Numbered from the stretch's first letter, positions 28,224 through 46,931 are shown. The stretch is DNA of 64,000 bases from Thermodesulfobium sp. 4217-1 (GCF_039822205.1 NZ_JBAGBW010000004.1:31530-95529), one strand, 5' to 3'. Notes: generated from the letters alone by a model not told the origin. Translations and numbers: made by a program.

Positions 28224-29084
28224 CTAAAAATTATTAAAAATAACTTTACCTTTCTTTAAATCTCCTAAAATATTATCTCTTTTAGTAATCTTAGTAATCT
28301 TACTTCCAACAGATAAGTAAAATTTTGCATCAGTCATCTTTGGCTTATTTTTAGTAAAATCAAACTCGCCCAGCAACTCAATTTCCCCTTCAAAGGTTAT
28401 ATCATTGCTAAAGGGTATAAAATATAAGCTATCTTTGTCTTTGGCTATTTTTACTTTATTATTTTCTATTTGGAAAACGGTATCATTACTATCTTTTAAC
28501 TCTTTTTTATTAACAAGTTCTAATTCTCCATAACCATATCTAATATCAGCTCCTACATATATTTTTAAGCCTTTTTCGATAAAGTTTTCTATACGATCAG
28601 AATCTAAGTAAATAATTCCCATCCAGTAGAGATTATCTTTAAACCCTTTTCTCTTCAGTTTTTCATAAAAATCATTTTTGGGTCGTGGAAGCAAATAATC
28701 TATTTCATGAAGACTTTTGTCCTTTGCCTTTCTGCTCACAGGCTCTACTGCAGTCTGGACAAAAGTATCTACAAAGTATAATCTAAATTCTACCTCACTA
28801 AATTCTACCTCACTAAATTCTTCCAAATAAAATTCCCCACTTTTATATGATGGTTTTAAAAAATTACTTTCATTGAAAGCTGGGAAAAAATTAGAAATTC
28901 TTTCGAAACTCTTCTGAACTTCTTCTATATTTTGAAATCCATTTTTTCTTAGATAAGAATTCACCAAAGCTCCCCACATTATTTGGCCCGATATAAAGAT
29001 ATCTGTCTCTTTTAAAACTCCCCATTTCGATGAGCCTATATGAATTGGTTGATTTTGCTTAAAAACAAGTTTATACCAGCTCAC
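28224..29084 (-). CDS. cmr3: Type III-C RAMP protein Cmr3-like (gr5)
   Basis: The protein has 286 residues. YKLVFKQNQPIHIGSSKWG is the first strand of a RAMP/ferredoxin-like fold, ISGQIMWGALVNSYLRK fits the conserved helix, and VGADIRYGYGELELV is a Gly-rich loop. Size and its place as the last gene after cmr4-cmr5 suggest the Cas5-like (gr5) subunit that holds the crRNA 5' tag. Sequence similarity to classical Cmr3 is weak, so the name rests on order. The start GTG overlaps the cmr5 stop (GTGA) with GGAGG 7 bases upstream. Residues 95-106 contain a short tandem duplication (EEFSEVEFSEVEF). Confidence 0.62.
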   Translation of the reverse strand: MSWYKLVFKQNQPIHIGSSKWGVLKETDIFISGQIMWGALVNSYLRKNGFQNIEEVQKSFERISNFFPAFNESNFLKPSYKSGEFYLEEFSEVEFSEVEFRLYFVDTFVQTAVEPVSRKAKDKSLHEIDYLLPRPKNDFYEKLKRKGFKDNLYWMGIIYLDSDRIENFIEKGLKIYVGADIRYGYGELELVNKKELKDSNDTVFQIENNKVKIAKDKDSLYFIPFSNDITFEGEIELLGEFDFTKNKPKMTDAKFYLSVGSKITKITKRDNILGDLKKGKVIFNNF

Positions 29085-29506
29085 TTCAAATCCTCCATTG
29101 CTTTTGCGTGATAGCGCGCATATATTAAAATTCTCTCAAGCACGTCTTTAAAGAAGAGAAGTTGATGCAGATCTGCCGATAGTAAAAGAAAGAACTTTTC
29201 AAAACTCTCTAAAACATCTTTTTCATTTTCACTGTTTTCTTTACATAAGAAATAGTCAGTATTTTCATTTTTTAAATTTTCCAAAATATTTTTAAAAATA
29301 TTTTTTATAATATCTTCACAAAGGATGATACGCATTAATTTTACTGTATTAGAACCAATTTTAACATTTGTGTAAATCCACCAGGCATAAGCTCCATCAG
29401 TTGCTAAAACTCCTAGCATTTTATTTATTTCACTAGCATTAATTATTTTGTTATTTACAATTTCATAACTTATCTTATTTATAGTTGCTTCAAGATTGTT
29501 TTCCAT
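29081..29506 (-). CDS. cmr5: Type III-C small subunit Cmr5-like (gr11)
   Basis: The protein has about 141 mostly helical residues, rich in Lys, Glu and Asn, with no catalytic motif. LATDGAYAWWIYTNVK near 45 and the closing LLFFKDVLERILIYARYHAKAM resemble the helix bundle of small subunits that line the target RNA in type III complexes. ATG at 29506 has GGGGGAG 6 bases upstream, and it overlaps cmr4 by 17 bases; an upstream GTG at 29521 is less likely. Position between cmr4 and cmr3 is the main basis for the name. Confidence 0.58.
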   Translation of the reverse strand: MENNLEATINKISYEIVNNKIINASEINKMLGVLATDGAYAWWIYTNVKIGSNTVKLMRIILCEDIIKNIFKNILENLKNENTDYFLCKENSENEKDVLESFEKFFLLLSADLHQLLFFKDVLERILIYARYHAKAMEDLK

Positions 29507-30656
29507 TTTGTACTCCCCCACTTTGTGCTTCAGAATTCGATTTTAAATTAGTCAAGATCTTTAGCCTTCCAAATCCTCTTGTAGTCATTCCGCCTATTCC
29601 AAGAGTTTCATAATAGTGTTTCGAATCTTCAAGAGCCTCTTTTAACTGTTCTTTTGTTGGAAGGCAATTTAACCCCCCATCTATGCCGTTAAAAACAGAT
29701 TTATCAAAAATTCTTATAGTTGAGTAAAATATTGTTCCTCTTGGAATAGCTTCTGATGTAAACAGAGCGCCTTCTTTTGCTGCTCCTGTTATTGGATCGA
29801 TAGATACAGACGTCCTAACTTCAAGGTTTGAGTTTACTATCTGAGAATACAAATTTTCAGGAACTATTACAATATCTTTATTAGAAATAATATTATTAAC
29901 ATATACTTTATTTAAATTTATACTACAACTTTCAGCAATATATGGCAAATATAGCCATCCCAGGTTTATATAGCCACTTTTCTTGTCATCATATATATTC
30001 TCAACAACAACCTTAACTTGTCCATCATTATTATCTTTATTATCTTCTTTAACATCTAACGAAAACCCTACTTCCTTTAAAATTCTCTCAGTAGTTATCC
30101 ATTTAGTTCCAGACATAGTAAATACAGGGAAAAATACAATCTGTAAATCAGAAAAGAATAACATTCCCTGCCAACTTATATCTTTTTTAGAAAATCCAAA
30201 ACCCTTGCAAACTATACAATGTCCACAATGACCCGTTTTGCCTTCCTTATTTTTAGCATCTGGTGAATTCAATAATTCTTCTTGTGAAGTATTATCCTGC
30301 CCTGCACAGGTTATTTTTGCCACAACATTGCCACTAAATTTCAAACAGTCTTCCCCCTTGCAATCATTAGAATTACTTTTTTTAGTCCAATTATTTATTT
30401 TCTCTTCTAAAGTTTTCCCCTTGCAATTTTTAATTTCATTAAATTCAGGTTGCTTACCTCTAACTTTAGTTAAAAGTTCAAGTGCCATATAATATCTCCA
30501 AGTTCCAGCTAAAGAACTGCCAGGAATTTTTGGAAGCTTAGTAATTGGGTCTCTTACTATAGTATTGTCAACTCTACCTATAGTATATCCGCCTGTACCA
30601 ATGTAAATAGGATCTGTAGCTATACTATAAACCTTGAGCTCTTCAACTTTACTCAC
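29490..30656 (-). CDS. cmr4: Type III-C backbone RAMP protein Cmr4 (gr7)
   Basis: The protein has 388 residues. YSIATDPIYIGTGGYTIGRVD, then VRDPITKLPKIPGSSLAGTWR, is the Cmr4 signature. D30 lies in the VD that corresponds to the Asp cleaving target RNA every 6 nt in type III-B complexes. The Cys-rich insertion with CKGEDC and CGHCIVC (about 107-150) could bind zinc. FFSDLQIVFFPVFT and TKWITTERIL are typical. Multiple copies form the filament along the crRNA. Start is GTG, with AGGAGG upstream inside the end of csx11 (8-base overlap). Target-RNA cleavage therefore looks possible. Confidence 0.82.
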   Translation of the reverse strand: MSKVEELKVYSIATDPIYIGTGGYTIGRVDNTIVRDPITKLPKIPGSSLAGTWRYYMALELLTKVRGKQPEFNEIKNCKGKTLEEKINNWTKKSNSNDCKGEDCLKFSGNVVAKITCAGQDNTSQEELLNSPDAKNKEGKTGHCGHCIVCKGFGFSKKDISWQGMLFFSDLQIVFFPVFTMSGTKWITTERILKEVGFSLDVKEDNKDNNDGQVKVVVENIYDDKKSGYINLGWLYLPYIAESCSINLNKVYVNNIISNKDIVIVPENLYSQIVNSNLEVRTSVSIDPITGAAKEGALFTSEAIPRGTIFYSTIRIFDKSVFNGIDGGLNCLPTKEQLKEALEDSKHYYETLGIGGMTTRGFGRLKILTNLKSNSEAQSGGVQNGKQS

Positions 30657-33600
30657 CTTTAACCTCCTTTAACATTTTGTGCCAAAAATCAAACATATCC
30701 AAAAATAGATATAGATTTTTCTTATCCTCAAATTTTTTAATCAATTCATTATGGAAATTTGCTTCATTTAATTCAAATATCTCAGAAATTCTCTTTTTCA
30801 TTACATCATTCTTATTTATTTCAAGAATATTTAAAAAAGAAGCAGCTATAAAAGAAGCATAATTTTCATTACAATCTTGAATTTTTTCATAAAGTAAACT
30901 AATTAGATTGTTTAATTTTGATGAATTTGACTTATCTTTAAAAAGTTCTTTAAATTTCTTAAATTTTCCCCAGTATATTTCTAAGTCATATGGTCTATTT
31001 GATTTTATTTCAAGTATTCTTTTTCCTTTTTCATCGTAAAAAATGTCATTTCGTCTGGTATTTGTATCCAAAAATTCGAAGTCAAAGGTATTTGGAATTA
31101 TTGATACCTCTTCTTTTTCATCAAATTTATCAATACTCTTAATAGTTTCTTGCTTCTTCTTTGATTCTAAGAAATAAAACTTAAACCCTTTGTCGGCTTC
31201 TGTTTTACTTTTATACAACGAATAATAACTTTGTGTATTGTTCAGTAATTCTTCTGTTTTCTGACATTTTAATCTTTCTTTAATTTCAGAAGATTTTACA
31301 AATACTTCTAAGTTTTTTAAATCTTTATCTTTAACATCTCTTCTAACTTTTCTAAGCGCATTAATTCCAACATATAGCGGCTTTTTATAATCCTGCACTA
31401 CTACTCCAATATGTAAAGGCAGTTTTCCGTACACAAATCTAAAATTTTCATCGTATTTTTTCATTACGATATCTATCAAATTTGGCACATATTCAGCAGG
31501 TATAATAAACTGCCAGCTTATAGGAGTCGGGTCAATTATCGACATATATGGTTGGTAATTTTCTTTATTATTATCATTCACCTTAAAAGTTCCAACACTT
31601 TCTTTAACATTAGGATATTTTTTTAACTTAAATTCTTTGTTTATTAAATCCTTATCATTAATATAAGATATTAAATAAATCTTTCTATCTATGACCCAAA
31701 AAATTGCTTCACCATCATAATACTCACCTTCCTGAAGGTTTTTGTCATTTTCTCGATAATACCTTATGCCTCTCTCGGGTGGAATACCTGCATAACTACA
31801 TATGTTTCTTTCTATATCCTCAAAAAATTCTTTAGTACTCTCCCAAATTCTTCTTAACCTTGCAGGAGAAGGATTTTTCCTGAGAAGGAATTGAAGAATA
31901 AGAATAGAAAGAAATTCTATATTCTCGTCTGAAAGACTTTGCCATTTTATTTCTGCATTATCAAAATCAATTTTATTTTTCCTAGGCTTATTTTGAACAG
32001 AATCCCAATCATCTAATTTTTCATAAATAAATTTTTCCCATTTATCACCAATAGAGCGTTCAAGTAATAAACTTTCGATAATTTTATTGTCTTTGACCTT
32101 GAGTTTACCAAGAGCTATATCTGTATAATTTTTTAGAACAGTATCTGAAACTTTTTTATCTTGATTGTTTTTATAAATATTTATAAGATTACCAATTAGC
32201 TTTTTAACATCCTCTACAAAGTTAATGTCTTTTTGCAATACCATGCTACTCAGCATATCACCATTTAACCAATCATGAAGCTCAAACTTCATTGTTACCA
32301 AAGCGACTCTCTTGTTTTTATCCTTTAATTCATCCATCCAGATAGTCTCTTTACTTGTATCTTCAAACCATTTGCTAATTCTGCCCACTGTTTTCTCTTT
32401 ATAACAAACGTTGCAAATATTTTTGTTTTCATCATCTTTTATATCTGATTCAAATACAGGCCTTTGCCTACAAATCTGACATATTCCTATTGCCCGATCA
32501 CTTCCAGATTTTTCTATAAATTTGTCTTTATCTTTTTTACTCCAATCTGTCTTTAAAAAGTTCTCCCTTGCACTTTCAAGAAGATAACATAGATTCATAA
32601 GCCCTCTGGAATTCTTAGTAAGAAAAATGGCAGGATAGAACTCATCAAGAGTTTTTTCTTTGAAAATATTTAATATTTTTTCCTTTATATCTCTTAAGTC
32701 ATTTTTTAACGTAGCTAATTTACTATTATCTTCAGAATCCTCCCCTAAATCTTCTCCAACTAAAAAATATATTCCTGTTTCATCGCGATAAATCTCATTG
32801 CCAACAGGATATTCATATTCCAGAAGATTTTTTATTTCATTGTCTATCTCTCTTGCTATGTCTCTGTACCACTGTATTTGCTGAGGCTTAAAACCTCTTT
32901 CAGCAAACCCAAGTTTATCATATTGTATTCCCAGAATACGCCATTTTATATCAGACGGATTATTTTTGTATTCTTCTACTTTTGATGGTTCCATGCACAA
33001 TTGAGCTAATACTGCCTTAAACATAGTAGCGCTCATATATGCCTGATCCCATAGAGTAACATCATTTACAGGAAAACGCGAATCGCTTAAAAGATTGGAA
33101 TACCACTCTTTAATTTCATCAAAAATAAATTCTCTTATTTCTCTCCATTCTGGATTACTGTAGTAATTGTTACATGAAAGGAAGTTATGAAGCTTATTGT
33201 AAAAGCAAACTCTTGCGTCATCAAGATTTTGTAGTTCTACATTTTTCTTAAAAGATCCAAAAGCGTTTGAAATCCATAAATTGCCTTTTAGTTGCTCTTT
33301 TGGCGATCCTTTATCTATACCAGAATTTATATTTTCGCAACCACGGAAGAAAATTTTCTTAATAAAATCTGAAGAACTTTTGTCACCTTTCATTATTTCT
33401 TTAAATTTAAGCTTTAAACTAGATATAAAATTTAGATCTATTTGCGTCGCATCTATAAAATCTTTTAGTTGTATATCAGTGTTTTTAAGTTCTCCGTCTA
33501 AAAAATTATCAACATAATCTTTGTAACTTGACCATTTATAATTTGAATTGGAGAAAAATGGTCTCCAAGGTGAAAATCCAACATGTGTTTTCCCTAAGTT

Positions 33601-33678
33601 AAATAACAATGTTCCTATCTCAGCTTTTAAAATATCATCTCTATATTTTTTTAAATTTTCCAAATTTAACTCTAACAT
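30649..33678 (-). CDS. csx11: Csx11, Cas10-like large subunit of a type III-C effector
   Basis: The protein has about 1009 residues, which fits the large, rare Csx11 family found beside Cmr-type RAMP genes. A zinc ribbon CQIC...CNVC (C403, C406, C425, C428 counted from the upstream GTG 33687) sits in the middle, as in Cas10. The N-terminal site where Cas10 carries an HD nuclease reads LLFNLGKTH, so the His-Asp pair is missing there. RVALVTMKFELHDWLNGD is a palm-like strand, but I see no GGDD cyclase motif anywhere. The protein is therefore probably structural, without cyclic oligoadenylate synthesis, as described for type III-C. ATG at 33678 has GGGGTG 6 bases upstream and overlaps cmr6. Confidence 0.75.
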   Translation of the reverse strand: MLELNLENLKKYRDDILKAEIGTLLFNLGKTHVGFSPWRPFFSNSNYKWSSYKDYVDNFLDGELKNTDIQLKDFIDATQIDLNFISSLKLKFKEIMKGDKSSSDFIKKIFFRGCENINSGIDKGSPKEQLKGNLWISNAFGSFKKNVELQNLDDARVCFYNKLHNFLSCNNYYSNPEWREIREFIFDEIKEWYSNLLSDSRFPVNDVTLWDQAYMSATMFKAVLAQLCMEPSKVEEYKNNPSDIKWRILGIQYDKLGFAERGFKPQQIQWYRDIAREIDNEIKNLLEYEYPVGNEIYRDETGIYFLVGEDLGEDSEDNSKLATLKNDLRDIKEKILNIFKEKTLDEFYPAIFLTKNSRGLMNLCYLLESARENFLKTDWSKKDKDKFIEKSGSDRAIGICQICRQRPVFESDIKDDENKNICNVCYKEKTVGRISKWFEDTSKETIWMDELKDKNKRVALVTMKFELHDWLNGDMLSSMVLQKDINFVEDVKKLIGNLINIYKNNQDKKVSDTVLKNYTDIALGKLKVKDNKIIESLLLERSIGDKWEKFIYEKLDDWDSVQNKPRKNKIDFDNAEIKWQSLSDENIEFLSILILQFLLRKNPSPARLRRIWESTKEFFEDIERNICSYAGIPPERGIRYYRENDKNLQEGEYYDGEAIFWVIDRKIYLISYINDKDLINKEFKLKKYPNVKESVGTFKVNDNNKENYQPYMSIIDPTPISWQFIIPAEYVPNLIDIVMKKYDENFRFVYGKLPLHIGVVVQDYKKPLYVGINALRKVRRDVKDKDLKNLEVFVKSSEIKERLKCQKTEELLNNTQSYYSLYKSKTEADKGFKFYFLESKKKQETIKSIDKFDEKEEVSIIPNTFDFEFLDTNTRRNDIFYDEKGKRILEIKSNRPYDLEIYWGKFKKFKELFKDKSNSSKLNNLISLLYEKIQDCNENYASFIAASFLNILEINKNDVMKKRISEIFELNEANFHNELIKKFEDKKNLYLFLDMFDFWHKMLKEVKGE

Positions 33679-34814
33679 TTTTTCCACCCCATTTTTTCAA
33701 TAGTTACAATGGACTCAACATCTCCATTAATACAATAATACTTTTCGTTATCTATTATCTCAAAAGTTCCCCAACCAAGCTTTGTCTTAGCTCCTATCCC
33801 ATTTTCCGATACCCTTTCAATTGCTGACATAAGGTTTTCTAAATCCTTTTTTGCTTCGTCTTTTATCTCATTATCTGCTTTTAAAACCGCATCAAAAGGA
33901 ACATAAATAATTTGCAAGATACCTTTTGTTTCCTTTGGAACTACTTCATAAAAAATGGGCTGAGTTCCTGCCCTTTTTCTTCTATCATGAGGATTTATAA
34001 CTTCTAAAGAAAGCTTGTCAAAATATGTAGGATAAAATATTGCCCTACCTTTATGTGTTTGAAATTCAATTGGAAGATTTTTGTTGTCTTTTTGATGTTT
34101 TTCAGATATTTTTTCACAAAGAATATTTTTAAGTTCTTCATATGATTTTTTACTCTTAATTTCGTCTATAAGATCTTTGTCTATTTTCATCCCAAGTTCA
34201 AATAACATAAATTCCAGAATCTTTTCTTTAAACTGCTCTATATCACTACTATTCTCTTTTAAATATTCTTCTATCCCTTTTATATTTTCAGAACCTGCCC
34301 CAAAAATTCTTAAGTAGCTGTTAATGATTTCTCTTTTTCCATCCAAGTTATCCTTTTCATTAATTAATTCTTTAAACGATCCTGCTAAGGCCCCTTTCCA
34401 CCCTGAACCCCTTATCATTGGAACTTTAAAAGCCTTATCCTTTAAGCAAGAATTTTGAATTATATAATATTCATCGTCATCTTTAGAAAAATAAGGCTGT
34501 TTTAGTTTAAATTCTGCCCGAATTATAAATGAATAAATGGGAAGTTTTTTTATAAATTTTTTTAAACTATTATTTTCTCTATTGTCAATAGATATAAAGT
34601 TTGAAATTTCTTTTGCAGTTTGAAATTCTTTAGTAGGTACAGGAAACTTTTTTTTACATTTAATCTTCTCACAAAACCCTTTAACTTCATCGGATTTCTT
34701 TCTTAAATCTTTAAATTTCAATTCTAAATAATATCTTGCCTCTGTCTCATTATTTATAAAAGAATTAAAATTTTCAATAGCTTCTGCAAATGCGTCATAT
34801 TTAACATTACCCAT
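33672..34814 (-). CDS. cmr6: Type III-C RAMP protein Cmr6-like (gr7)
   Basis: The protein has 380 residues. KVPMIRGSGWKGALAGSFK near 131 is the RAMP loop and helix, KGRAIFYPTYFDKLSLEVI, NPHDRRKRAGTQP and FYEVVPKETKG form a conserved core, and GIGAKTKLGWGTF near 340 is the Gly-rich C-terminal loop. In Cmr complexes, Cmr6 and Cmr1 cap the end that meets the 3' side of the crRNA. The order cmr1-cmr6-large subunit-cmr4-cmr5-cmr3 supports the name. A helical N-terminal extension of about 90 residues precedes the RAMP core. It overlaps cmr1 by 8 bases and csx11 by a few bases. Confidence 0.7.
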   Translation of the reverse strand: MGNVKYDAFAEAIENFNSFINNETEARYYLELKFKDLRKKSDEVKGFCEKIKCKKKFPVPTKEFQTAKEISNFISIDNRENNSLKKFIKKLPIYSFIIRAEFKLKQPYFSKDDDEYYIIQNSCLKDKAFKVPMIRGSGWKGALAGSFKELINEKDNLDGKREIINSYLRIFGAGSENIKGIEEYLKENSSDIEQFKEKILEFMLFELGMKIDKDLIDEIKSKKSYEELKNILCEKISEKHQKDNKNLPIEFQTHKGRAIFYPTYFDKLSLEVINPHDRRKRAGTQPIFYEVVPKETKGILQIIYVPFDAVLKADNEIKDEAKKDLENLMSAIERVSENGIGAKTKLGWGTFEIIDNEKYYCINGDVESIVTIEKMGWKKC

Positions 34815-35815
34815 TTAAATTACCCTGTCCTTCTGTAAATTTAAACAATAACTCTTTATATTTATCAAATATCTCCTTCTTTAATGGTTCGTTATAATCG
34901 AATGGATTATTAAAATTTATTAAATAAACCGAATCATTATCCCCTAGTAAATTAGATACATATATACGTGATGCTGCTTTTTGCTCCCCAAAGTTTTCTT
35001 TTCTAAGACACTTGTCTTCACTCTTCCTTAAAAAGTATTTAAAATTAAATCCCAATACCTTTTTTTGGTTGTTATATTTAACTTTTTCTATTTTGTGGAC
35101 ACGAATTATATCATTGTAGTCGCTAATATTTCTTTTATTTTCATTTTTATCACCTTCAACTTTAATATTTACTAATCCGAAGCCAAAAGAAAGTTTACCC
35201 CCAATTAAAATTGGCTTATCTTTATAAAAATCAAAAAAAATCAGATAAATATTTTTTCTGCCAATATTCAGTTGTTCTAATCAATAATTTTATATTTTTA
35301 AACAAAATTATTTCCGAATTGTTATTTTCAAAAAGATTCTTTTTAATCCAGAACTTTGTATTAACTTTAATACTATCACTACTTGGAAAGTTGAAATCTA
35401 ATTCATTAAGTCTAAGTTTTTCTTCATAAGAATCAATCTTTTTTACTTCAATTCTACTCTTCCAACCTGTAAATCCAAATAAACGAGACGGAATAGGTAA
35501 ACCTAATTCTTTTAATGATTGATCTAACATTTCATCAAAGCTTTTATCATCATTATTGTTCTTTAAGTGATTTTTTAAAATTTGATTTAACGTACGACCA
35601 ATTTTTGGGTCTTCGAGTTCACTTAAGTTATCGATGACAACATTGTCACTATTTAAATTTTCTGTTTTACCATTTTTAACAGTTTTCCAATATACTACAA
35701 ACCAAAATCTCAAACTCCCCATTAAAGATGACGGCCTGATTTCTTTTGATTCACCCCAGGCATCTCCCGTCCACACAGGAGTAATTGTCTCAAATTCTAC
35801 TTTTATCTCTTTCAT
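34807..35815 (-). pseudogene. cmr1: Type III-C RAMP protein Cmr1, frameshifted at a T8 tract
   Basis: Two frames belong to one gene. The first (35815-35231) starts MKEIKVEFETITPVWTGDAW and EIRPSSLMGSLRFWF, the Cmr1 opening, and stops right after LSDFF at a run of eight T (coding strand). Removing one T gives DFFDFYKDKPILIGGKLSFG and continues without interruption through the Gly-rich loop GKLSFGFGLVNI and KVLGFNFKYFLRK to the stop at 34807, in total about 335 residues. Cmr1 binds the distal end of target RNA duplexes. As written, the protein would be cut to 194 residues and lose its second RAMP loop. Slippage at the T8 run could restore it. The start has GGGGTGAAAA directly upstream. Confidence 0.78.
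35233..35240. repeat. A8/T8 homopolymer at the cmr1 frameshift
   Basis: Eight A on the plus strand (T8 in the gene) lie exactly where the two cmr1 frames meet. Seven would restore the frame. This could be a phase-variable tract, a site of transcriptional slippage or a sequencing error. Confidence 0.85.
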
Positions 35816-35845
35816 TTTTCACCCCACACAATCCCAGTTTTAAGT

Positions 35846-35874
35846 ATTTTATCATTTTTAGAATAATTTTTTAA
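35846..35874 (-). promoter_or_regulatory. Candidate promoter of the type III-C operon
   Basis: Read leftwards: -35 TTAAAA (35869-35874), 17 bases, and an extended -10 TGATAAAAT ending at 35846. The predicted start is about 30 bases before cmr1. The same TGnTAAAAT form is seen in the array leader. It lies in the 80 bases between array and cmr1. Confidence 0.5.
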
Positions 35875-35896
35875 CTTAGTTTTTAAAAAACTTCAT

Positions 35897-38402
35897 GTTT
35901 CAATTCCTCATAGGTATCGTAAAAACTTGACCGTTGCTTTTTTTAACGATAAATATAATGTGTACACGTTTCAATTCCTCATAGGTATCGTAAAAACTAG
36001 CCAAAGTAGTTTGTTGAAATCATTTCGTAATTCATGTTTCAATTCCTCATAGGTATCGTAAAAACAATGTAATAAACATGAAGGGCGTGTTTGCTAATTG
36101 CTAGTTTCAATTCCTCATAGGTATCGTAAAAACTCGAAAGAAATCACAGAAGATTTTAATTTGATTTGGTTTCAATTCCTCATAGGTATCGTAAAAACTC
36201 GAAAGAAATCACAGAAGATTTTAATTTGATTTGGTTTCAATTCCTCATAGGTATCGTAAAAACAAATTAGGGATCTCCGAACAGGAGAATATTTATTGTA
36301 GTTTCAATTCCTCATAGGTATCGTAAAAACCGAAATAGCCTGGGTCTTCAGGGTCAAGAATGAAAACATGTTTCAATTCCTCATAGGTATCGTAAAAACC
36401 TTAATAGAGTTAATGTTTATTTTGAAGTATAGACATGTTTCAATTCCTCATAGGTATCGTAAAAACCTATTGGGAACATCAATACAGCTTTATCCCATAC
36501 GAGTTTCAATTCCTCATAGGTATCGTAAAAACCTTAATAGAGTTAATGTTTATTTTGAAGTATAGACATGTTTCAATTCCTCATAGGTATCGTAAAAACC
36601 TCTTTTTTGAGGAGTATTTGTACTGGCGTGATGTGAGTTTCAATTCCTCATAGGTATCGTAAAAACCCTTTATCCCTAAATTCCTTCAAGGCTGGGACAT
36701 CAAGTTTCAATTCCTCATAGGTATCGTAAAAACCATCAATGAGCAACCAATTAGCTGTGTCTGCATGCCGTTTCAATTCCTCATAGGTATCGTAAAAACT
36801 GAGTGGGTGTGTATGTATACATCAAACCGCACTCTGTTTCAATTCCTCATAGGTATCGTAAAAACACAAAGATCAAAGAAGCTTTCCTCACGTGGGAAAG
36901 CTGTTTCAATTCCTCATAGGTATCGTAAAAACTTTAGTACAATTATATATTTTCTTTATATTTTCTATAGTTTCAATTCCTCATAGGTATCGTAAAAACT
37001 GGGATATCTGATTTTGCAAGACAACACGAACTATCTAGTTTCAATTCCTCATAGGTATCGTAAAAACTAAATCCATCTTCATCCACATCTATCCTGGATG
37101 CCCTGTTTCAATTCCTCATAGGTATCGTAAAAACTATATTAATCGAAATCATCATAACCTTCTTCATACTCGTTTCAATTCCTCATAGGTATCGTAAAAA
37201 CTTTTTGCGCATCTTCTTTTGCTTTATCTGTTTTCCCATGTTTCAATTCCTCATAGGTATCGTAAAAACCGTAAAATCTCTTGCTGGGACACTTGATTTA
37301 TTTTGGTTTCAATTCCTCATAGGTATCGTAAAAACTGAACGTGTATAAAGCCAAATAACGTTTAGACTATGTTTCAATTCCTCATAGGTATCGTAAAAAC
37401 AAAGATTTTTACGCTTCCATTTCTGAAGACATACTGTTTCAATTCCTCATAGGTATCGTAAAAACTGCAACAATAAGATCATCAATTGTTTCAAATTTTC
37501 TGTTTCAATTCCTCATAGGTATCGTAAAAACAGTATTTCAGATTATTTAAATAAACACAAAAAATAGTTTCAATTCCTCATAGGTATCGTAAAAACCTTG
37601 CGGAAAAGAAAGCACAGGCAAAACAAGAAAAGAGTTTCAATTCCTCATAGGTATCGTAAAAACCATCTGATCTTCGCTCACTCTTTCCGAGTGAGCGTAG
37701 TTTCAATTCCTCATAGGTATCGTAAAAACTATTTTAGTACTACGCACAATATTATTTTTACACTCGTTTCAATTCCTCATAGGTATCGTAAAAACTCAAA
37801 AATATTCCCAGAAGTAGTTGATTATAGATACAGGTTTCAATTCCTCATAGGTATCGTAAAAACTTTGTATTTTTCTTTGTATTTTTCTTTGTATTTTTTA
37901 GTTTCAATTCCTCATAGGTATCGTAAAAACTATTACAATCAAAACCTAAACAACCTGGATCAATTGGAGTTTCAATTCCTCATAGGTATCGTAAAAACCA
38001 TAACAAAATCTTTATTGGTTTTTGCCCCTTTTGTAGTTTCAATTCCTCATAGGTATCGTAAAAACTTATATTTTGTTGCCCATTGAATGTTATTTGGTTT
38101 CTGTTTCAATTCCTCATAGGTATCGTAAAAACCCATAATCCATATTTCGTTCTCCTTTCAAAAAACATGTTTCAATTCCTCATAGGTATCGTAAAAACAT
38201 ATCATTTGAGCCATTGCTTTGTTATATGCATCTTGGTTTCAATTCCTCATAGGTATCGTAAAAACAGAAGGGAGATGACGATGAGTTAATTATTCTTGGG
38301 GAGTGTTTCAATTCCTCATAGGTATCGTAAAAACAGAGTTACTTAATTTGCTTAGACATGAGCTTGTTATCCGTTTCAATTCCTCATAGGTATCGTAAAA
38401 AC
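35897..38402 (-). CRISPR. CRISPR array, 38 repeats and 37 spacers
   Basis: I counted 38 copies of a 30-base repeat, seemingly all identical; on the plus strand it begins GTTTCAATTCC and ends TATCGTAAAAAC. Spacers are 35-41 bases. Read on the minus strand the repeat ends in ATTGAAAC, the classic 8-base crRNA tag of type I-B, so transcription runs leftwards from a leader at 38403 next to cas2. The newest spacers are at the right and the oldest at the left, beside the III-C operon. Two spacers occur twice: 36134-36168 equals 36199-36233, and 36400-36436 equals 36533-36569. Short frames reading through the array are artefacts. Confidence 0.98.
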
Positions 38403-38548
38403 CACTAGACTTAACTAAGTATTTTAGCATACTAAACATGAAATTCCAAGCTTAACATAATAAAAAAGCTGAATATTTATGCTTTTATTTTAAAAGAGAT
38501 TCTGTCTATATATCATATATTTGTCATTATTTGGAATCGACAGATAAA
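38403..38548 (-). promoter_or_regulatory. CRISPR leader with array promoter
   Basis: This AT-rich 146-base leader lies between cas2 and the first repeat. Leftward promoter: -35 TTGGAA (38444-38449), exactly 17 bases, and an extended -10 TGCTAAAAT (TAAAAT at 38421-38426). Transcription would start about 10 bases before repeat 1. The leader is also where Cas1-Cas2 would insert new spacers. Confidence 0.75.
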
Positions 38549-38815
38549 TTAAATAAAATTAATATCTGATTTCTTATCCTTTCCTACGACGATTCTATCT
38601 GTATATCTTTGAGATTCGAACTTATAAATAATTAAGCTATCGCCTTCTTCTTCATTTACAATCTTTGCTAAAACAGAAATCAATCTTTTAAGTTGTGACT
38701 CAGTTAAATTCCCTTCAAAAACTGAGTTTTGGACCCACTGCAAATATGCTCTGCACTTTTTTAACATCTTTGAACATCGTTTTTCGCTTACATCATAGTA
38801 CAAGATTATAAACAT
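38549..38815 (-). CDS. cas2: CRISPR-associated endonuclease Cas2
   Basis: The protein has 88 residues. FIILYYDVSEKRCSKMLKKC is the first ferredoxin-fold strand with the conserved Asp, and YLQWVQNSVFEGNLTESQLK follows. Cas2 is the dimeric bridge in the Cas1-Cas2 spacer integrase. An upstream TTG at 38821 exists, but ATG at 38815 overlaps the cas1 stop as TAATG, which favours the ATG. It is the last gene of the I-B operon, next to the leader. Confidence 0.93.
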   Translation of the reverse strand: MFIILYYDVSEKRCSKMLKKCRAYLQWVQNSVFEGNLTESQLKRLISVLAKIVNEEEGDSLIIYKFESQRYTDRIVVGKDKKSDINFI

Positions 38816-39810
38816 TACCAATCCATAACAAATGGCTTATATTCATAATATTCCATAAGAAACTTTTCAATCTTATAGCATTCTAATCTTATTAATCTTC
38901 TGTAACTAACTTCTCTTTTTAAAGTTGAATGTTTTATTGTCTGATTCAATCTTTCCTGTAATACTTCTAAAAACTTTCTACAACCTGATGGTTTCAAAAT
39001 AATTCCATTTAAATTATTATCAAAATCTTTACTGTCAATTATTCCTTTGTTCAAAACAGCAAATATGGTTCTATCACCAATTACTGGTTTAAATATTTCT
39101 GCTATATCCAGATTCAGAGAGAACCTTCTGAAATTAGTTGCATGCAAAAAACCCATTCGTGGGTCTAGATGAGTTTGATATATCTCAGAAAGGCAATAGG
39201 TATATATCAAAGAATTAGAAAAGCTAATCAAAGCATTTAAGTAATCTTTAGGAGGTTTTTTCGTGCGTTTTTCAAACGTAAAATCGCTATTATTAATAAT
39301 ATTTTTAAACGCACCATAATAAGATTGTTTTATTTTTCCCTCAACATGCATCAATGTCTCAATACTTTCCTGACACTCAATTTCTTGTAAATAACTTTCA
39401 ATTTCTTCGATAATACTACTTAAATTCTGCCCCCTTCTATTGTAATATTTAAGTATTTTCAAAGAATTTTTCGCTGCACCTTCTACAAAGCATCTTGCAA
39501 TCTTGAGCCTTTTATTAATTGCTTCATACGCTAATGCCTGTTTTAGTATCATGTACCCAGAGTTATAATGCTCCCGAGGGTAAAAACTGCCTATGTAGTA
39601 ATCATAAAAATTAAAAAAGTGAACAATTATTTCTTTTGTTGTTAAAAATTCTAATATTCTTTTGTTAAAATCTACTTCACCAAATACAAAAATTTCTTTT
39701 ATATTCTCTACTGGTAAAAACTTATTAGTTCCATCTTCGCTTTCAAAAAATAAAGTATTATCTTTTCTTTGAATTCTACCGCTATTAAAAATATAAATAG
39801 TCTCTTTCAT
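38815..39810 (-). CDS. cas1: CRISPR-associated integrase Cas1
   Basis: The protein has about 331 residues, the typical size of type I-B Cas1. The N-terminal beta domain is followed by a helical catalytic domain with HVEG (E157), GFLHATNF (H223) and LDIAEIFKPVIGDR (E238), the metal-binding triad. It joins protospacer ends to the leader-proximal repeat. A TTG at 39831 would extend it into cas4, but MKETIYIFNSGRI at 39810 is the normal beginning, although without a clear ribosome-binding site. The gene is translationally coupled to cas2. Confidence 0.93.
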   Translation of the reverse strand: MKETIYIFNSGRIQRKDNTLFFESEDGTNKFLPVENIKEIFVFGEVDFNKRILEFLTTKEIIVHFFNFYDYYIGSFYPREHYNSGYMILKQALAYEAINKRLKIARCFVEGAAKNSLKILKYYNRRGQNLSSIIEEIESYLQEIECQESIETLMHVEGKIKQSYYGAFKNIINNSDFTFEKRTKKPPKDYLNALISFSNSLIYTYCLSEIYQTHLDPRMGFLHATNFRRFSLNLDIAEIFKPVIGDRTIFAVLNKGIIDSKDFDNNLNGIILKPSGCRKFLEVLQERLNQTIKHSTLKREVSYRRLIRLECYKIEKFLMEYYEYKPFVMDW

Positions 39811-39818
39811 TTTATTAA

Positions 39819-40316
39819 CTACACAAAGCAAAATTCATAGTGTGCACATTTTGAACAGTATTTAATTCTCTTTACTAAGGGTGAATTTTCAGAATTTAAA
39901 ACTTCTATAATTTCACGAATTCTCTTCTCGATATAATCAATATCTGAAGAGTTCAAAGTAATTTCTAAGCTCTTTTTTTCAAGCGGTATTTTTATCATTC
40001 CCTTAATTTCTACTCCTTTTAATCTAAGAAGATACATATAATATTTCAGTTGTTCAATCCCCGATTGCATAGTGGCTGAAGACTTCTTTATTTCAGCTAC
40101 AAAATATTTTCCATCTTTAAGCGTTATCATATCAATCTTGGCAGATAAATCAGGAATATATATCTCTTTTCTCTCTCTAGAAAATGATTCTTCGCTTATA
40201 AGTCTGCCTATATCAAGGTAAGTAAATTCCTGATCAGCAACCATCTGACGAGACATCAGCCATGCCTGCCTTTGACAGATAAGAAATGCATTATAAATTG
40301 ATGGAGAAATCAACAT
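39819..40316 (-). CDS. cas4: CRISPR-associated exonuclease Cas4
   Basis: The protein has 165 residues. RecB-type nuclease residues are visible in SAKIDMI and VAEIKKSS (E-x-K). Cysteines C14 (LICQRQAW) and C154, C157, C163 (YCSKCAHYEFC) would hold a 4Fe-4S cluster. Cas4 trims prespacers and selects PAM-proximal ends for Cas1-Cas2. It lies between cas3 and cas1, the usual type I-B order. The start ATG is 9 bases after the cas3 stop. Confidence 0.92.
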   Translation of the reverse strand: MLISPSIYNAFLICQRQAWLMSRQMVADQEFTYLDIGRLISEESFSRERKEIYIPDLSAKIDMITLKDGKYFVAEIKKSSATMQSGIEQLKYYMYLLRLKGVEIKGMIKIPLEKKSLEITLNSSDIDYIEKRIREIIEVLNSENSPLVKRIKYCSKCAHYEFCFV

Positions 40317-40325
40317 TTGATACTC

Positions 40326-42608
40326 TTACAAAAAATTTTCATTAGTATCAACTATAAATCCAACATCATCTTTATAAAGCATTTGAACGAGATCTTTACT
40401 TAAAATCTTAAAACTGCCCATTTCATCAAATGATTGATATGAATATTTTGCATCATTACTTAGCATGGGCAGACTAATAACATATTGATAAAATTGACTC
40501 TTTATTTGTAAAAACTTTTTCTTTCTTTCAAATGGATCTTCTATCTCACGTATTTCTTTAAATTTATCTAAAATTTTAGAAGCATTAATATCTTTTTCTA
40601 TAAATAAGCTATAAGAAGGCAGATCATCAATAAGTTTAAATTTCTCCTTAATACCTTTATATTCAAGTTTTTCAATACTATTAATTAATTCACTAGATTC
40701 ATTTGTTGAAGAGTTATTTTTTAACTTTTGATAATAGCTATCAATGATATCATTTAAACTACATTCATCTAACTTTTCAACTTTTTCAAAAATTGACAAG
40801 GTAGTATCTAACAATAAGCCATGATAAATATACTCACAATCGTATTTATTAGCATGATTTTTTAATCTGAAAACATAAACGCTACCTTTTGGTTTTCTAC
40901 AATGTCTATTGCATCTTCCAGCAGCCTGAATTATATTATCAAGGGGCGCAAAGTCTCTATATACTATATCAAAATCAATATCAACTCCAGCCTCCACTAA
41001 TTGAGTTGTAATTAATATTTTACGTCCTGAAAAATTTTTAATCAGATTAATTACTGCAAATCTATCAATTGGCAAAACTCTTGATGAAAGAAAAAATATA
41101 TTATGGTTAACAAATATTTCTTTTAATTTAAAGAAAAAATCTCTTGCACTTTTAATAGTATTAAAAATAAACATAAAATCTTTATCTGGATTATCTATGA
41201 TATGAGTCTTTACTATTGGTAAAAGTTCATCCAAATATAATCCATCAAGAATGATTTTGTTTATAGAATATCTATTAAAAATAGAAAAATATTTTTTACG
41301 ATTACCCTTACCAATTAAATTACAGATCTTATCCTTTTCAAAAATCATAGGCATTGTAGCTGTCAAGATAATAATCTTACAATTAAGTGTTTCTGCCAGA
41401 TTAGTTAAAAGAAAGTTTGCAAGCATCCAATATCTATAAGGTAAGGTTTGAATTTCATCTAAAATTATCACAGAATTAGAAATGTTATGAAATTTTCGCA
41501 AGATAGAATTTCCATTTGAAAGCATTGAATAAAAAATCTGCCAAAAGGTGGTTACTATAAATGGTTTATCCCAATTTTCAATTATAAATTGCGCTTTATC
41601 AGCATCCAGATAACCATCAGAAAGTTTTACTTTTATCTCTGCAAGATTATGGTGGACATTTAATATATTTTCGGATTCATAGCCATATAGGTTTTTGACG
41701 ACGTCAGCAGTTTGTTCAACTATAGATGTAAAAGGCAAAGCATAGATTATTCTTTTTATAGAATTATCACTGTTTAATATTTGTAAAGCCGTATTTACGG
41801 CAGTAAGAGTTTTACCAAATCCTGTTGGTAAATTAAGAGAAAAAATAGATTGATCTAAATTGGATAGCAAAGTATTTTCTACAAGATTATAAGCCTCTTC
41901 TCTAATGATGTTTATCTTACTATCAACAATAAAATTTGCTTTCTTATAGCTATAGACAACACTGGTATCGATGCTGGTTGCACATTCGAAAGGTTTTTCA
42001 AAAATTACATCATTTTTATCAGCATATGTAAGTATCGAAAACATCAAATTATTTACAAAATACCAAACAACATTCCATTCAATAGAATCATAGGCATCAT
42101 ATAGTTCATCGTCTATACAATTTTTTACATCTGAAAACTCTGGATGCAGTTCATTAAAATCATGCCAAATTATAACATCCCATTGTTTTTCTAAAACCCT
42201 CCACTTTTTTGTATCTACAACTAACATATCATTAAAATTATCCATATCCCCATGATGTTTTAAAATACAGATAAAAACCAAGCACGCTAATCTTATATCT
42301 TTAGACTTAAATTTTTTATATGCTATATATCCTGCAAAAATAGCAGATAAAAGAGAGTGATTTCTTAATTCCCCATAGGAGCATTTTTGGTTATCTACAG
42401 AACACTGAAGATATTCTTGAAAATATTTTGTAGATTTACCAAAATCATGATACCAAAGAGCAATTTCCAGAGCTTCCTTAAAATCATCCGCATCAATTGG
42501 TAACTTTAATAAGATTTTAGAATCAAATACACTTAAACCAATTTTCTTAACGTTATTCAAATGATCTATTAGGTATTTTTTAGGATGAGAAAAACATTTA
42601 TATTCCAT
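40326..42608 (-). CDS. cas3: CRISPR-associated helicase-nuclease Cas3
   Basis: The protein has 760 residues. The N-terminal HD nuclease has LIDHLNNV (H16) and LWYHDFGKS (H54-D55). The helicase part has Walker A PTGFGKT (261-267), DEIQ in place of DEAH at 384-387, motif III ILTATMP, and motifs V-VI TQLVEAGVDIDFD and QAAGRCNRH. It is a single-chain HD-helicase, recruited by the I-B Cascade to unwind and degrade target DNA. The start overlaps the cas5 stop by one base (TGATG). All motifs look intact. Confidence 0.94.
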   Translation of the reverse strand: MEYKCFSHPKKYLIDHLNNVKKIGLSVFDSKILLKLPIDADDFKEALEIALWYHDFGKSTKYFQEYLQCSVDNQKCSYGELRNHSLLSAIFAGYIAYKKFKSKDIRLACLVFICILKHHGDMDNFNDMLVVDTKKWRVLEKQWDVIIWHDFNELHPEFSDVKNCIDDELYDAYDSIEWNVVWYFVNNLMFSILTYADKNDVIFEKPFECATSIDTSVVYSYKKANFIVDSKINIIREEAYNLVENTLLSNLDQSIFSLNLPTGFGKTLTAVNTALQILNSDNSIKRIIYALPFTSIVEQTADVVKNLYGYESENILNVHHNLAEIKVKLSDGYLDADKAQFIIENWDKPFIVTTFWQIFYSMLSNGNSILRKFHNISNSVIILDEIQTLPYRYWMLANFLLTNLAETLNCKIIILTATMPMIFEKDKICNLIGKGNRKKYFSIFNRYSINKIILDGLYLDELLPIVKTHIIDNPDKDFMFIFNTIKSARDFFFKLKEIFVNHNIFFLSSRVLPIDRFAVINLIKNFSGRKILITTQLVEAGVDIDFDIVYRDFAPLDNIIQAAGRCNRHCRKPKGSVYVFRLKNHANKYDCEYIYHGLLLDTTLSIFEKVEKLDECSLNDIIDSYYQKLKNNSSTNESSELINSIEKLEYKGIKEKFKLIDDLPSYSLFIEKDINASKILDKFKEIREIEDPFERKKKFLQIKSQFYQYVISLPMLSNDAKYSYQSFDEMGSFKILSKDLVQMLYKDDVGFIVDTNENFL

Positions 42609-43336
42609 CAGTATAAAATAATGTTGTTTTTAAGCTCTTTAATAAAAACATAATCTTTAGGCTTTGCAGAAATTGTTTGTCCATTCATCTCTATTAAAAA
42701 ATAATCAGCTTTTAATAGCTCTCTTTCGGAAGAAAGTTCTACAGGCATATTGAGTTTAATATATTTTCTATTTTCAATTAATAATTTAATATCTTCAATT
42801 AATTCAATGCTAGATATGGGTAAAAGAGAATTTATCTCAACAAAATCATCTGGTTTACTATTTGTAAATCCATCATATATACCAATCAGAGCAAAATTTG
42901 CAAGCAATTCACTTATTCCTAGCGATATGGTATAAACTGATTTGTGATCTTTTAACATATCATATAAACTATAGATTTTGCTATCTTCCGATTGACAATA
43001 TATTCTATATTTAGGATTTTTTAAAAGTTCCAGCCTAATTTGTGTTCTTGAAGATTTTTTTGGATTTAAGCTCACAAAATCATGTGCTACCTTTACATTA
43101 ATAAAATTTTCTACCATACGAATTTTTGATATTGGATTCACTGCTGAGACACTAAATTGCCATTTTTTATCATTAAAATACTTTAAATATTCATCTTTAT
43201 CCAAACCTAAAATTGCCCCCACAATACCATAAAGAGTTGGTTTTGGCGGCACAGGAAAACTAATGGGTGACGTGGTGGTAAAAGGTACCTTAAAATGCCC
43301 ATAATCAGCCCATATATCAAAAACAACTATTTTCAT
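42608..43336 (-). CDS. cas5b: Type I-B Cascade subunit Cas5
   Basis: The protein has 242 residues. GHFKVPFTTTSPISFPVPPK followed by PTLYGIVGAILGLDKDEY is the Cas5h opening with its Gly-rich turn. Cas5 holds the 5' tag of the crRNA and contacts Cas8. It follows cas7 after 4 bases and precedes cas3 with a one-base overlap. Confidence 0.9.
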   Translation of the reverse strand: MKIVVFDIWADYGHFKVPFTTTSPISFPVPPKPTLYGIVGAILGLDKDEYLKYFNDKKWQFSVSAVNPISKIRMVENFINVKVAHDFVSLNPKKSSRTQIRLELLKNPKYRIYCQSEDSKIYSLYDMLKDHKSVYTISLGISELLANFALIGIYDGFTNSKPDDFVEINSLLPISSIELIEDIKLLIENRKYIKLNMPVELSSERELLKADYFLIEMNGQTISAKPKDYVFIKELKNNIILY

Positions 43337-43340
43337 AATA

Positions 43341-44288
43341 CTAACCTAAATTTGGAAGTTCAATCCATTTTTGAGGTATTTCACAACTCAATCTTAATTT
43401 ATCATCTATTTTATAATAAACATTACTAACTTTTGTCGAATTTTCTAAGACTTTTACTAATTCCGAAATATCTAAAGTAAAATCAGATAAACTTCTGATA
43501 GCAAATTCATTTGTAAAATCTTTAATTTTCAACATCTTATCTAAGTCCCCAATAAAATATCCTTTTTCGTTATAATCAACTTTCAACAAAAAACGCGGCA
43601 TCTGACCAAATTTTGAACGCGATATCAAATTTTTCGTTCCATTCCACATAGCATCAATCAATTCATTGGAATCATCTTCGCTCATATTAGTTTTTCTTGC
43701 AGCAGTTTCATTAATAATACCGTAAAAAGTTATAAAAGAATATGGCAAAACATATTCCTCTCTAAATGTAGCCTGGCCCTTACCTGCCTTTGATGCAAAT
43801 GCACCAGTACCTTTTAGATATTTAACATCAATTTTATTTAAAGACCTGCCAATTTTAAATTGAACAGGACCCGTAAAGGTGATGGAATTACTTTTATTAT
43901 CAAGTTCTTCTCGAGATTCATCATTCTTTTTTCCTTTTTCACGTTCTTTAAGAGGAATTACGCCTCCAAATAATCTTACATCAATGCATTGTTCTAATAC
44001 TTTCTCTTGATTTTCCCCAAAATCCCTCGCCCTTTCTTTTGCATCTTGTATACCCCCTTCTTTACTAGGCAATTCTCTAACAAAAATATCTTTCCCATTT
44101 GTCCCATCATATCCTTTATATTCAATAAGATAATCCCTAATTGTTCGCTTTAGTCTAACGTCAGTAACAATATTTATCTTTGTCTCTTCATCTATTCTAG
44201 GTCTATTCTCATCTGCAGGATCACCATTTGGATTTGCATCTGTAACATCGTAACAAAATAAAAGCTCGCTTTTTTTATCTAAAATCAT
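43341..44288 (-). CDS. cas7: Type I-B Cascade backbone Cas7 (Csh2 type)
   Basis: The protein has 315 residues. LLFCYDVTDANPNGDPADEN RPRID, then TDVRLKRTIRDYL, is the Csh2/DevR-family signature. LFGGVIPL and FTGPVQFKIGRSLNKI are the central strands. Several copies coat the crRNA spacer. The ATG overlaps the cas8b stop by one base. Confidence 0.93.
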   Translation of the reverse strand: MILDKKSELLFCYDVTDANPNGDPADENRPRIDEETKINIVTDVRLKRTIRDYLIEYKGYDGTNGKDIFVRELPSKEGGIQDAKERARDFGENQEKVLEQCIDVRLFGGVIPLKEREKGKKNDESREELDNKSNSITFTGPVQFKIGRSLNKIDVKYLKGTGAFASKAGKGQATFREEYVLPYSFITFYGIINETAARKTNMSEDDSNELIDAMWNGTKNLISRSKFGQMPRFLLKVDYNEKGYFIGDLDKMLKIKDFTNEFAIRSLSDFTLDISELVKVLENSTKVSNVYYKIDDKLRLSCEIPQKWIELPNLG

Positions 44289-46093
44289 CAGTTTTCCTCC
44301 AAGTTTTCTTCATTTTTTTTAAATTTCTTCTCTAAAACCATACCTAATGTAAAATAATAGCTTAATTCATCAACTGAATACCTTGAAAAATCACTATTCA
44401 TAAGATAAGATCCAATAATTTCTTCTAATTTTTTGTAATAGTTTTCATCATATTCTTCTAGTTTATTTATTGCTTCACTAAATATCTTTTTTGCTATTTT
44501 TTCATCGATCTTTAAACCATTAAGTTTTTTTCTAAATGGTTTAGAGTTCCGATCGCGGTATTGTATGTTAAGTAACCTCTGGATTAGTACGCCTTCTAAA
44601 AAAAGTGCTTTTTTTGTGCTGTCATCAAAAATAGGATAATGTTTAAAAAAACTCTCATAATTTTCATTTGATTCATTCACATTAAACCTCCTTCTAATTA
44701 AAATATTAATTTCTTCCAGATACAATAAAATTTTAAAGGATTTTAAGGTAAAGATAGATAACGTAAAAAAATTATCTGAATTCAAAAATATTTGTCTGAA
44801 TTTTTGCATAAATCTACTAAAAAGAAAATCAACGTCAATGCCCTGACCAATAAAAATATTGTTTAATATTTCAAGGAAAGCTTTATCAAATCCTCCATCA
44901 AATTTGTTGTTTGGGAAAAACTCTCTAATAAATGTAAATGAGAAATCAAATTTTACCTCATCATTCTTAGTAGACATAGAGTCAAATATACCGATAGGGT
45001 CCCTTTTAAAATCATCAACTGCATACATTGCATCAACTAATTGTTTCAATCTTGTAGGAGCAATTTCTTGGATATAAAGCAATATATTAAAAGCACTCTG
45101 AGAAACTTTATAAAAAACAAAATTAAAATTAACAAGATTATTCTCAGCTGACAATTTTTTTATAATGCTTTTTTCTGCTTTATATGTGGTTCCTGAATCA
45201 TTCGAAAGGGTAAAATTCTTAAAATCTTTAGATATCTTATTTAATAACGTTTTTAACATTGATTTATCTGGATAAATCAGTTCAGGTATTAAATAATAAT
45301 CAAATCCACAAAACTTGTAATTTAAATTATCTTGAATATATTTTTTTGCCCTTTCAAGAACTTCCACACAACCTGGACATACAGGATAGTTTTTCCATGC
45401 AAGACCTTGATCAAAGCCGCCAGTTACAAAGCTTCTTTTGTCAACTGTATAGAAATTATAAGTGTTAACAAAACCCCAAACTTCTGTAGCTTTTTGTCCA
45501 CATACGTAACAGAGCTTATTTTTCGCCTTACTTTGGGTATTATATTTAGAATAATAATCTTTATATTTATTTTCTTTGCTAATAAATGGTTTTTTAAATA
45601 CGTGCATATCACCTACATAATACATATTATCTTGATCTACAAATTGAAGAGTAATAGCCTTTGATTTTTTAGAGTTATTTAAATTATTTTCTACATAACT
45701 TTTAATTTTATCCAGATTAGAGCTTATTTCGGTATGTAATTTATTAACAAAATTTAAATCGTCTGGTTCTAACTTATTATTCTTTTTAAAATCATCAAAA
45801 AATCTCATATATTTCTTGAAAGCTTTATCAATGGATTTAGGATCAATTCTAGTAGTAGGTGTAAGATCTGTCTGATTACCCTTTCTTCCTTTGAAAAAAT
45901 ATTTCATCTTTTTATCCTGGCTGTATTCTTCATATTGAGTTTCTTTAAAAATAGGGTTATTTTTATCCGAATAATCAAAAATAATCTTAAAAATTAAGTC
46001 GTATTTATCACTTTTACCAATTTCATCAATAAACTCATCCAATTCGCTTTTCTCTTCCAAAACACTTCCTATAGCAAAAAGAGCTTCTATCAT
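44288..46093 (-). CDS. cas8b: Type I-B Cascade large subunit Cas8b (Csh1 type)
   Basis: The protein has 601 residues. MIEALFAIGSVLEEKSELDE at the start, a central zinc site LCYVCGQKA (near 198) with VCPGCVEVL (near 240), and a helical C-terminus that may serve as the small-subunit part agree with Csh1. Cas8b recognises the PAM. Its stop codon overlaps the cas7 start. The cas6 stop is one base upstream of its ATG, with GGATGAA as ribosome-binding site. Confidence 0.88.
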   Translation of the reverse strand: MIEALFAIGSVLEEKSELDEFIDEIGKSDKYDLIFKIIFDYSDKNNPIFKETQYEEYSQDKKMKYFFKGRKGNQTDLTPTTRIDPKSIDKAFKKYMRFFDDFKKNNKLEPDDLNFVNKLHTEISSNLDKIKSYVENNLNNSKKSKAITLQFVDQDNMYYVGDMHVFKKPFISKENKYKDYYSKYNTQSKAKNKLCYVCGQKATEVWGFVNTYNFYTVDKRSFVTGGFDQGLAWKNYPVCPGCVEVLERAKKYIQDNLNYKFCGFDYYLIPELIYPDKSMLKTLLNKISKDFKNFTLSNDSGTTYKAEKSIIKKLSAENNLVNFNFVFYKVSQSAFNILLYIQEIAPTRLKQLVDAMYAVDDFKRDPIGIFDSMSTKNDEVKFDFSFTFIREFFPNNKFDGGFDKAFLEILNNIFIGQGIDVDFLFSRFMQKFRQIFLNSDNFFTLSIFTLKSFKILLYLEEINILIRRRFNVNESNENYESFFKHYPIFDDSTKKALFLEGVLIQRLLNIQYRDRNSKPFRKKLNGLKIDEKIAKKIFSEAINKLEEYDENYYKKLEEIIGSYLMNSDFSRYSVDELSYYFTLGMVLEKKFKKNEENLEEN

Positions 46094-46094
46094 T

Positions 46095-46877: not shown

Positions 46878-46902
46878 CGCATTCCCCTTAAGTTTTATAT
46901 TT

Positions 46903-46931
46903 ATTAAAGCACAATACATAAAATTAATCAA
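46903..46931 (-). promoter_or_regulatory. Candidate promoter of the type I-B cas operon
   Basis: Leftward: -35 TTGATT (46926-46931), 17 bases, extended -10 TGCTTTAAT (TTTAAT at 46903-46908). The transcript would begin near 46896, 18 bases before the GTG of cas6. Confidence 0.5.

Follow-up and report, generated by a model that had tools for sequence, protein, structure and literature searches.

A type III-C CRISPR module, so classified from its sequence, adjoins a type I-B array in the window, i.e., the stretch of 64,000 nucleotides from Thermodesulfobium sp. 4217-1 analysed here. We consider it fairly probable that the I-B system, its array and the III-C module form a composite unit, in which an RNA slicer built around a Csx11 with dead HD and GGDD sites shares crRNAs with the I-B complex, and in which the array end is prone to exchange. 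As the best explanation of where the III-C guides come from, we infer that the I-B array feeds the module, a reading favoured because the same repeat type recurs beside III-C loci, III-C genes are found inside I-B operons, and cas3 is present in every csx11 genome tested.

The I-B cas genes, the array RNA and the III-C genes share the minus strand (Table 1). Along this strand, the I-B genes run in the order cas6b, cas8b, cas7b, cas5b, cas3, cas4, cas1 and cas2 (46931 to 38549), followed by an array of 38 identical 30-nt repeats and, 81 bp past its leader-distal end, by cmr1, cmr6, csx11, cmr4, cmr5 and cmr3 (35815 to 28224). The repeat RNA is placed on the minus strand by its ATTGAAAC handle, which is typical of I-B repeats; the leader therefore lies on the side of cas2 and adjoins it, and the III-C module stands at the old end of the array. 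Repeat strand and coordinates thus support the leader-distal, same-strand position that an earlier reading of the sequence alone had given the module. All eight I-B genes fit I-B or general Cas models in a curated profile search, and the profile matches of the module, together with its gene order and the repeats, are far above chance.

The array holds 37 spacers of 35-41 nt, and within the parts of the genome searched for its repeat it occurs at this site only. Two spacers are duplicated (window positions 36104-36233 and 36370-36567), each being present twice, with the copies of one pair adjacent. Searching the phage collection yielded no phage match for the spacers, and no protospacer was found; none is shared with the congener G001, and no match was obtained in the parts of the host genome examined. 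Promoter-like sites between the array and cmr1 were no better than chance. Given that a terminator-like stem is absent from this gap on the minus strand, read-through from the array into cmr1 is possible.

Table 1. Features of the I-B system, its array and the III-C module in the window.
Feature	Position	Strand	Remarks
cmr3 (Cas5-type subunit), 286 aa	28224..29084	-	PADLOC Cmr3 239 bits, III-B/III-C models
cmr5 (small subunit), 146 aa	29081..29521	-	PADLOC Cmr5 'CAS-III-C' 125 bits
cmr4 (Cas7-type backbone, predicted target-RNA nuclease), 388 aa	29490..30656	-	TIGR02580 108 bits, above cut-off
csx11 / cas10c, 1012 aa	30649..33687	-	TIGR02682 605 bits; PADLOC Cas10c 446 bits
cmr6, 380 aa	33672..34814	-	PADLOC Cmr6 309 bits
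cmr1, frameshifted	34807..35815	-	PADLOC Cmr1 187 bits, first part only
Gap between last repeat and cmr1, 81 bp	35816..35896	-	no terminator-like stem on minus strand
I-B CRISPR array	35897..38402	-	38 identical repeats, RNA strand GTTTTTACGATACCTATGAGGAATTGAAAC
Leader region, cas2 to array, about 150 bp	38403..38548	-	
cas2	38549..38821	-	PADLOC Cas2b
cas1 (I-B type)	38815..39831	-	TIGR03641 440 bits
cas4	39819..40316	-	PADLOC Cas4b
cas3	40326..42608	-	PADLOC Cas3b 629 bits
cas5b	42608..43336	-	TIGR02592
cas7b/csh2	43341..44288	-	TIGR02590
cas8b	44288..46093	-	PADLOC Cas8b 416 bits
cas6b	46095..46931	-	PADLOC Cas6b 205 bits

The sequence-only reading had proposed subtype III-C from the gene order and from a Csx11 of about 1-kb residues, and both observations hold, the protein having 1012 aa. 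When the six proteins were searched against profiles, Csx11 reached 605 bits with TIGR02682, whose cut-off is 248.95 bits, and also matched the PADLOC Cas10c model, and the models for Cmr1, Cmr3, Cmr4, Cmr5 and Cmr6 were matched as well. A III-B identity, i.e., a Cas10/Cmr2 with GGDD, was looked for and is ruled out: no Cmr2 model is among the Csx11 matches at E 0.1, and GGDD is absent. Judged by these profiles, the module is of type III-C. The subtype had also been called uncommon, in agreement with the 8 of 386 sampled genomes in which Csx11 scores above the cut-off. As that reading had noted, CARF and cas6 genes are absent both from the module and from the genes immediately past it. The module has no cas1 or cas2, and the I-B array is the only array nearby.

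Both catalytic sites expected of a Cas10-type subunit are missing from the Csx11 sequence, the loss of the HD site having escaped the earlier reading. At the HD position the protein reads LLFNLGKTHVGF, compared with LLHDIGK in HD-intact relatives, and according to the motif alignment it has lost the HH and D residues further on as well, while the zinc-finger cysteines are retained. Neither GGDD nor GGDE is found in the window protein, and none is conserved in the aligned relatives. GGD-like strings in four other loci (L037, L043, L053 and L071) were inspected by eye and set aside as chance occurrences, being either off the palm hairpin or unconserved. The HD-less proteins form a clade of 11 full-length Csx11 from several phyla, and the branch separating them from the HD-intact proteins has 100/100 support. 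A more distant Csx11 (L072, 8266-11499) has WFHMAGK at the HD position, a sequence that suggests a separate loss of the site. With the short patterns used, no Csx11 relative was found in viral contigs. In the comparison of Hoikkala and colleagues (PMC11229360), III-C loci are without cyclase sites, and half of them have a recognisable HD domain; by its motifs, the HD-less clade belongs to the other half.

At the sequence level, Csx11 has no match among solved chains. Alignment of its predicted structure, which is of moderate confidence (pLDDT 66), with Cas10/Csm1 chains starts at residue 17 and covers 474-479 residues, with a Z of 17.5 at best; as modelled, Csx11 has thus retained the Cas10 fold and lost the sites. 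In Cmr4, the GRVDNTIVRD motif retains its catalytic Asp, as alignment to solved Cmr4 chains shows, and this residue is present in all 11 loci checked; Cmr4 is, on its motif, the sole recognisable nuclease of the module. Given the loss of the HD and GGDD sites, Csx11 is probably a structural, target-sensing subunit, and since the Cmr4 Asp is kept, slicing of target RNA is the sole activity supported by the sequence.

The corresponding site in two congeners suggests how the array end may have changed within the genus. Genome G001 has the same flanking MFS gene and the same repeat in 87 copies, and its cas1, cas2 and cas4 products are 93-96% identical to those of the window at the amino-acid level. 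The space between its array and the MFS gene contains an IS21-type pair, two further repeats and the genes of a III-D module, namely those for a GGDD-bearing Cas10d, Csx10, Csx19 and a CARF-PDDEXK nuclease. The products of cas8, cas7, cas5 and cas3 are only 29-47% identical between the two genomes, and those of cas6 67%, so that the I-B effector genes, too, have either drifted apart or been exchanged, while the adaptation genes and the array stayed conserved as a core; comparing positions 38549-46931 of the window with L031/L032 makes the effector genes look replaced. In G003, the repeat search found no such array, and a csx11 fragment directly adjoins a cas6 fragment, in the arrangement that loss of the intervening DNA would leave. 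This remnant, at first read as descending vertically from the same module, may equally have arrived separately, as its csx11 pieces are about equally close to other members of the clade and to the window and hence not clearly closest to the latter. The flanking DNA is 85% identical between G001 and G003, which are closer to each other than either is to G000 (77-78%). From these alignments, the array end looks like an exchange site for type III modules within the genus.

When species genomes were scanned, 19 csx11 loci emerged, and several of them repeat the association with I-B components. In Thermosyntropha lipolytica (L041), the contig opens with three I-B-type repeats, the last of them degenerate, followed by cmr1 on the same strand, and all six ORFs of its III-C module are open. 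In two Hydrogenothermaceae (L037 and L048), repeats of that type, again ending in a degenerate copy, are followed by cas6 and then by III-C genes. The III-C genes lie inside an I-B operon in a WOR-3 genome (L036), in the order cas6-cas8-[III-C]-cas7-cas5-cas3-cas4-cas1-cas2, and comparable orders are seen in L037 (cas6-[III-C]-cas8-cas7-cas5) and L072 (cas6-[III-C]-cas8-cas7-cas5-cas3). They are divergent from the I-B operon in L073, and in L053 cmr3 is followed by cas5, cas3 and an array. Four loci (L038, L045, L046 and L047) have no array or cas6 within 10 kb and count against a composite unit. The repeat core CCTATGAGGAATTGAAAC occurs in arrays of five of the six further csx11 genomes searched, including those of L045, L046 and L047 (within two mismatches); the search of the L038 genome did not find it, which also speaks against such a unit. 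Every one of the 16 csx11 genomes tested has a cas3 that passes the cut-off, compared with 6 of the 14 controls, and an I-B Cas7 does so in 13 of 20 genomes. Two of these loci also carry other genes: a SIR2-like protein, a small ORF and an AAA ATPase lie between cmr1 and cmr6 of the III-C module in a Desulfonauticus MAG (L047, 4477-8954), and in L037 (17476-21181) the I-B operon is broken up, past its III-C genes on the downstream side, by nucleotidyltransferase/HepT-like pairs of toxin-antitoxin type.

The main alternative to a composite unit is that the module is a decaying relic. A point missed by the earlier reading is that cmr1 is frameshifted, so that one of the six genes is broken: its frame-0 ORF (35231-35815) stops after 194 aa, the lesion being the T8 run at 35233-35240, and the remainder extends in the +1 frame to 34807. 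The two halves (residues 2-194, and 195 onward) align end to end and gapless with intact relatives of 330-357 aa. A general base-calling fault is unlikely, given that several other 8-nt runs in the window fall within long intact ORFs; slippage or a single-site error at the T8 run may account for the shift, and the complex may no longer work in this strain. The frameshift would have inactivated III-C here as a deletion did in G003, leaving defence to I-B and III-A only. Besides the break at this one run, decay agrees with the congener in which nothing but remnants of csx11 and cas6 is left at this site, and with csx11 being broken into several ORFs in L046, L048 and L050. However, the remaining five ORFs are open, including the 3 kb csx11, and the Cmr4 active site is kept, while a 1-nt homopolymer shift is probably recent and reversible and could be bypassed by slippage. 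We regard a relic as unlikely, though it deserves more weight than the other alternatives.

The guides might also come from elsewhere in the genome. The sequence-only reading held that one array and one Cas6 probably feed both complexes; the I-B array does lie next to the module, but the genome has two arrays and two Cas6. Contig C1 carries a complete III-A system: its Cas10 bears HD and GGDD, it has csm2-5, cas1 and a cas6 of its own, and an array of about 50 36-nt repeats and a CARF-HEPN-Csx3 effector belong to it. This effector (L015, 1-1455) is a fusion, the same protein comprising an effector and a ring-nuclease-type domain. A gene of this locus, situated between csm5 and cas1, encodes a 620-aa TPR and archaeo-eukaryotic primase protein (L012, 10806-12668; AEP-TOTE, 169 bits), like CRISPR-associated primase-polymerases. 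Counting against a composite unit, this second array and second Cas6 could also supply crRNAs, in which case the closeness of the III-C module to the I-B array would be incidental; the III-A locus has the repeats, the Cas6 and the cas1, and its array handle ATTGCGAC (in the crRNA also written AUUGCGAC) resembles ATTGAAAC. Such a second array with its own Cas6, of the kind that the earlier reading had named as a possible refutation, weakens the idea of a shared array without overturning it, because there is already a III-A complex for that array to serve. Given that III-C recurs with I-B-type repeats and within I-B operons in other phyla, supply from III-A is improbable. Still more improbable, to the point of being close to negligible, is that the I-B Cas3 is recruited to transcribed DNA by a Csx11 complex whose HD site is dead, so that DNA interference would need no PAM. 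The cas3 genes in every csx11 genome tested and the III-C modules inside I-B operons would suit such recruitment, and the HD domain of Cas3 would make up for the HD loss; yet contact between Csx11 and Cas3 is purely hypothetical, Cas3 is common among thermophiles, and the genomes with HD-intact Csx11 also have cas3, which makes the co-occurrence a weak test.

If the composite unit is as we propose, Cas1, Cas2 and Cas4 of the I-B system would acquire spacers for the array, and Cas6b would cut its transcript into crRNAs with the 5' handle AUUGAAAC. These crRNAs would be common to both complexes: the I-B complex would use them to direct Cas3 to DNA flanked by a PAM, and Csx11-Cmr would use them to bind complementary transcripts, which Cmr4 would cut. 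The III-C arm would then be a PAM-independent RNA slicer, with neither DNA shredding nor a cyclic-oligoadenylate alarm, and over evolution type III modules would come and go at the array end. In this scheme, we infer crRNA sharing, read-through transcription and an output restricted to RNA.

More broadly, and only tentatively, since we rate the idea as somewhat less than an even prospect, the leader-distal ends of I-B arrays may be recurrent docking sites for type III modules, anchored by the repeats and the adaptation genes, with the doubly dead Csx11 clade being a dedicated RNA-slicing arm of type I that neither signals nor cuts DNA. Type III protection is thought to rest mainly on the Cas10 HD nuclease and on the cyclic-nucleotide alarm. 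A doubly inactive Csx11 clade that is kept in several phyla, and found only in cas3-bearing genomes, permits a direct test of whether RNA cutting alone helps when type I shares its guides. The III-D module of G001, with its alarm effector in the same place, offers a natural comparison of RNA slicing and signalling beside the same type of array. Two points are worth following: the type-I-bound clade of doubly inactive Csx11, and the III-C/III-D exchange seen at the end of the array.

Sharing of arrays between I-B and type III systems is already known. In the work of Vink and colleagues (PMC8482600), I-B paired with type III, with 71 cases, is the most frequent class of shared arrays. As in those pairs, there is one array and one adaptation module here, and the type III module has no cas1 or cas2; here, however, the III-C module sits at the very end of the array, with III-D in its stead in a congener, and the sharing is putative. 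Silas and colleagues (PMC5576922) demonstrated that a III-B system of Marinomonas mediterranea borrows I-F crRNAs, and reported many III-B, C and D loci without Cas6 and Cas1-2 that share arrays. The present locus resembles theirs in having a type III module without cas6 alongside a type I system, and in the exchange of modules between strains. Whereas transcription-dependent DNA interference was established experimentally in M. mediterranea, sharing here is putative, and Csx11 is predicted to be nuclease- and cyclase-dead. In comparison with subtype III-C as described (Csx11/Cas10c; MTH326-like), the module has a Csx11 above the cut-off and the full Cmr-type RAMP set, and likewise no cyclase motif, adaptation genes or CARF effector; it differs in that the HD site is also lost, cmr1 is frameshifted, and the module is fixed to the end of a I-B array.
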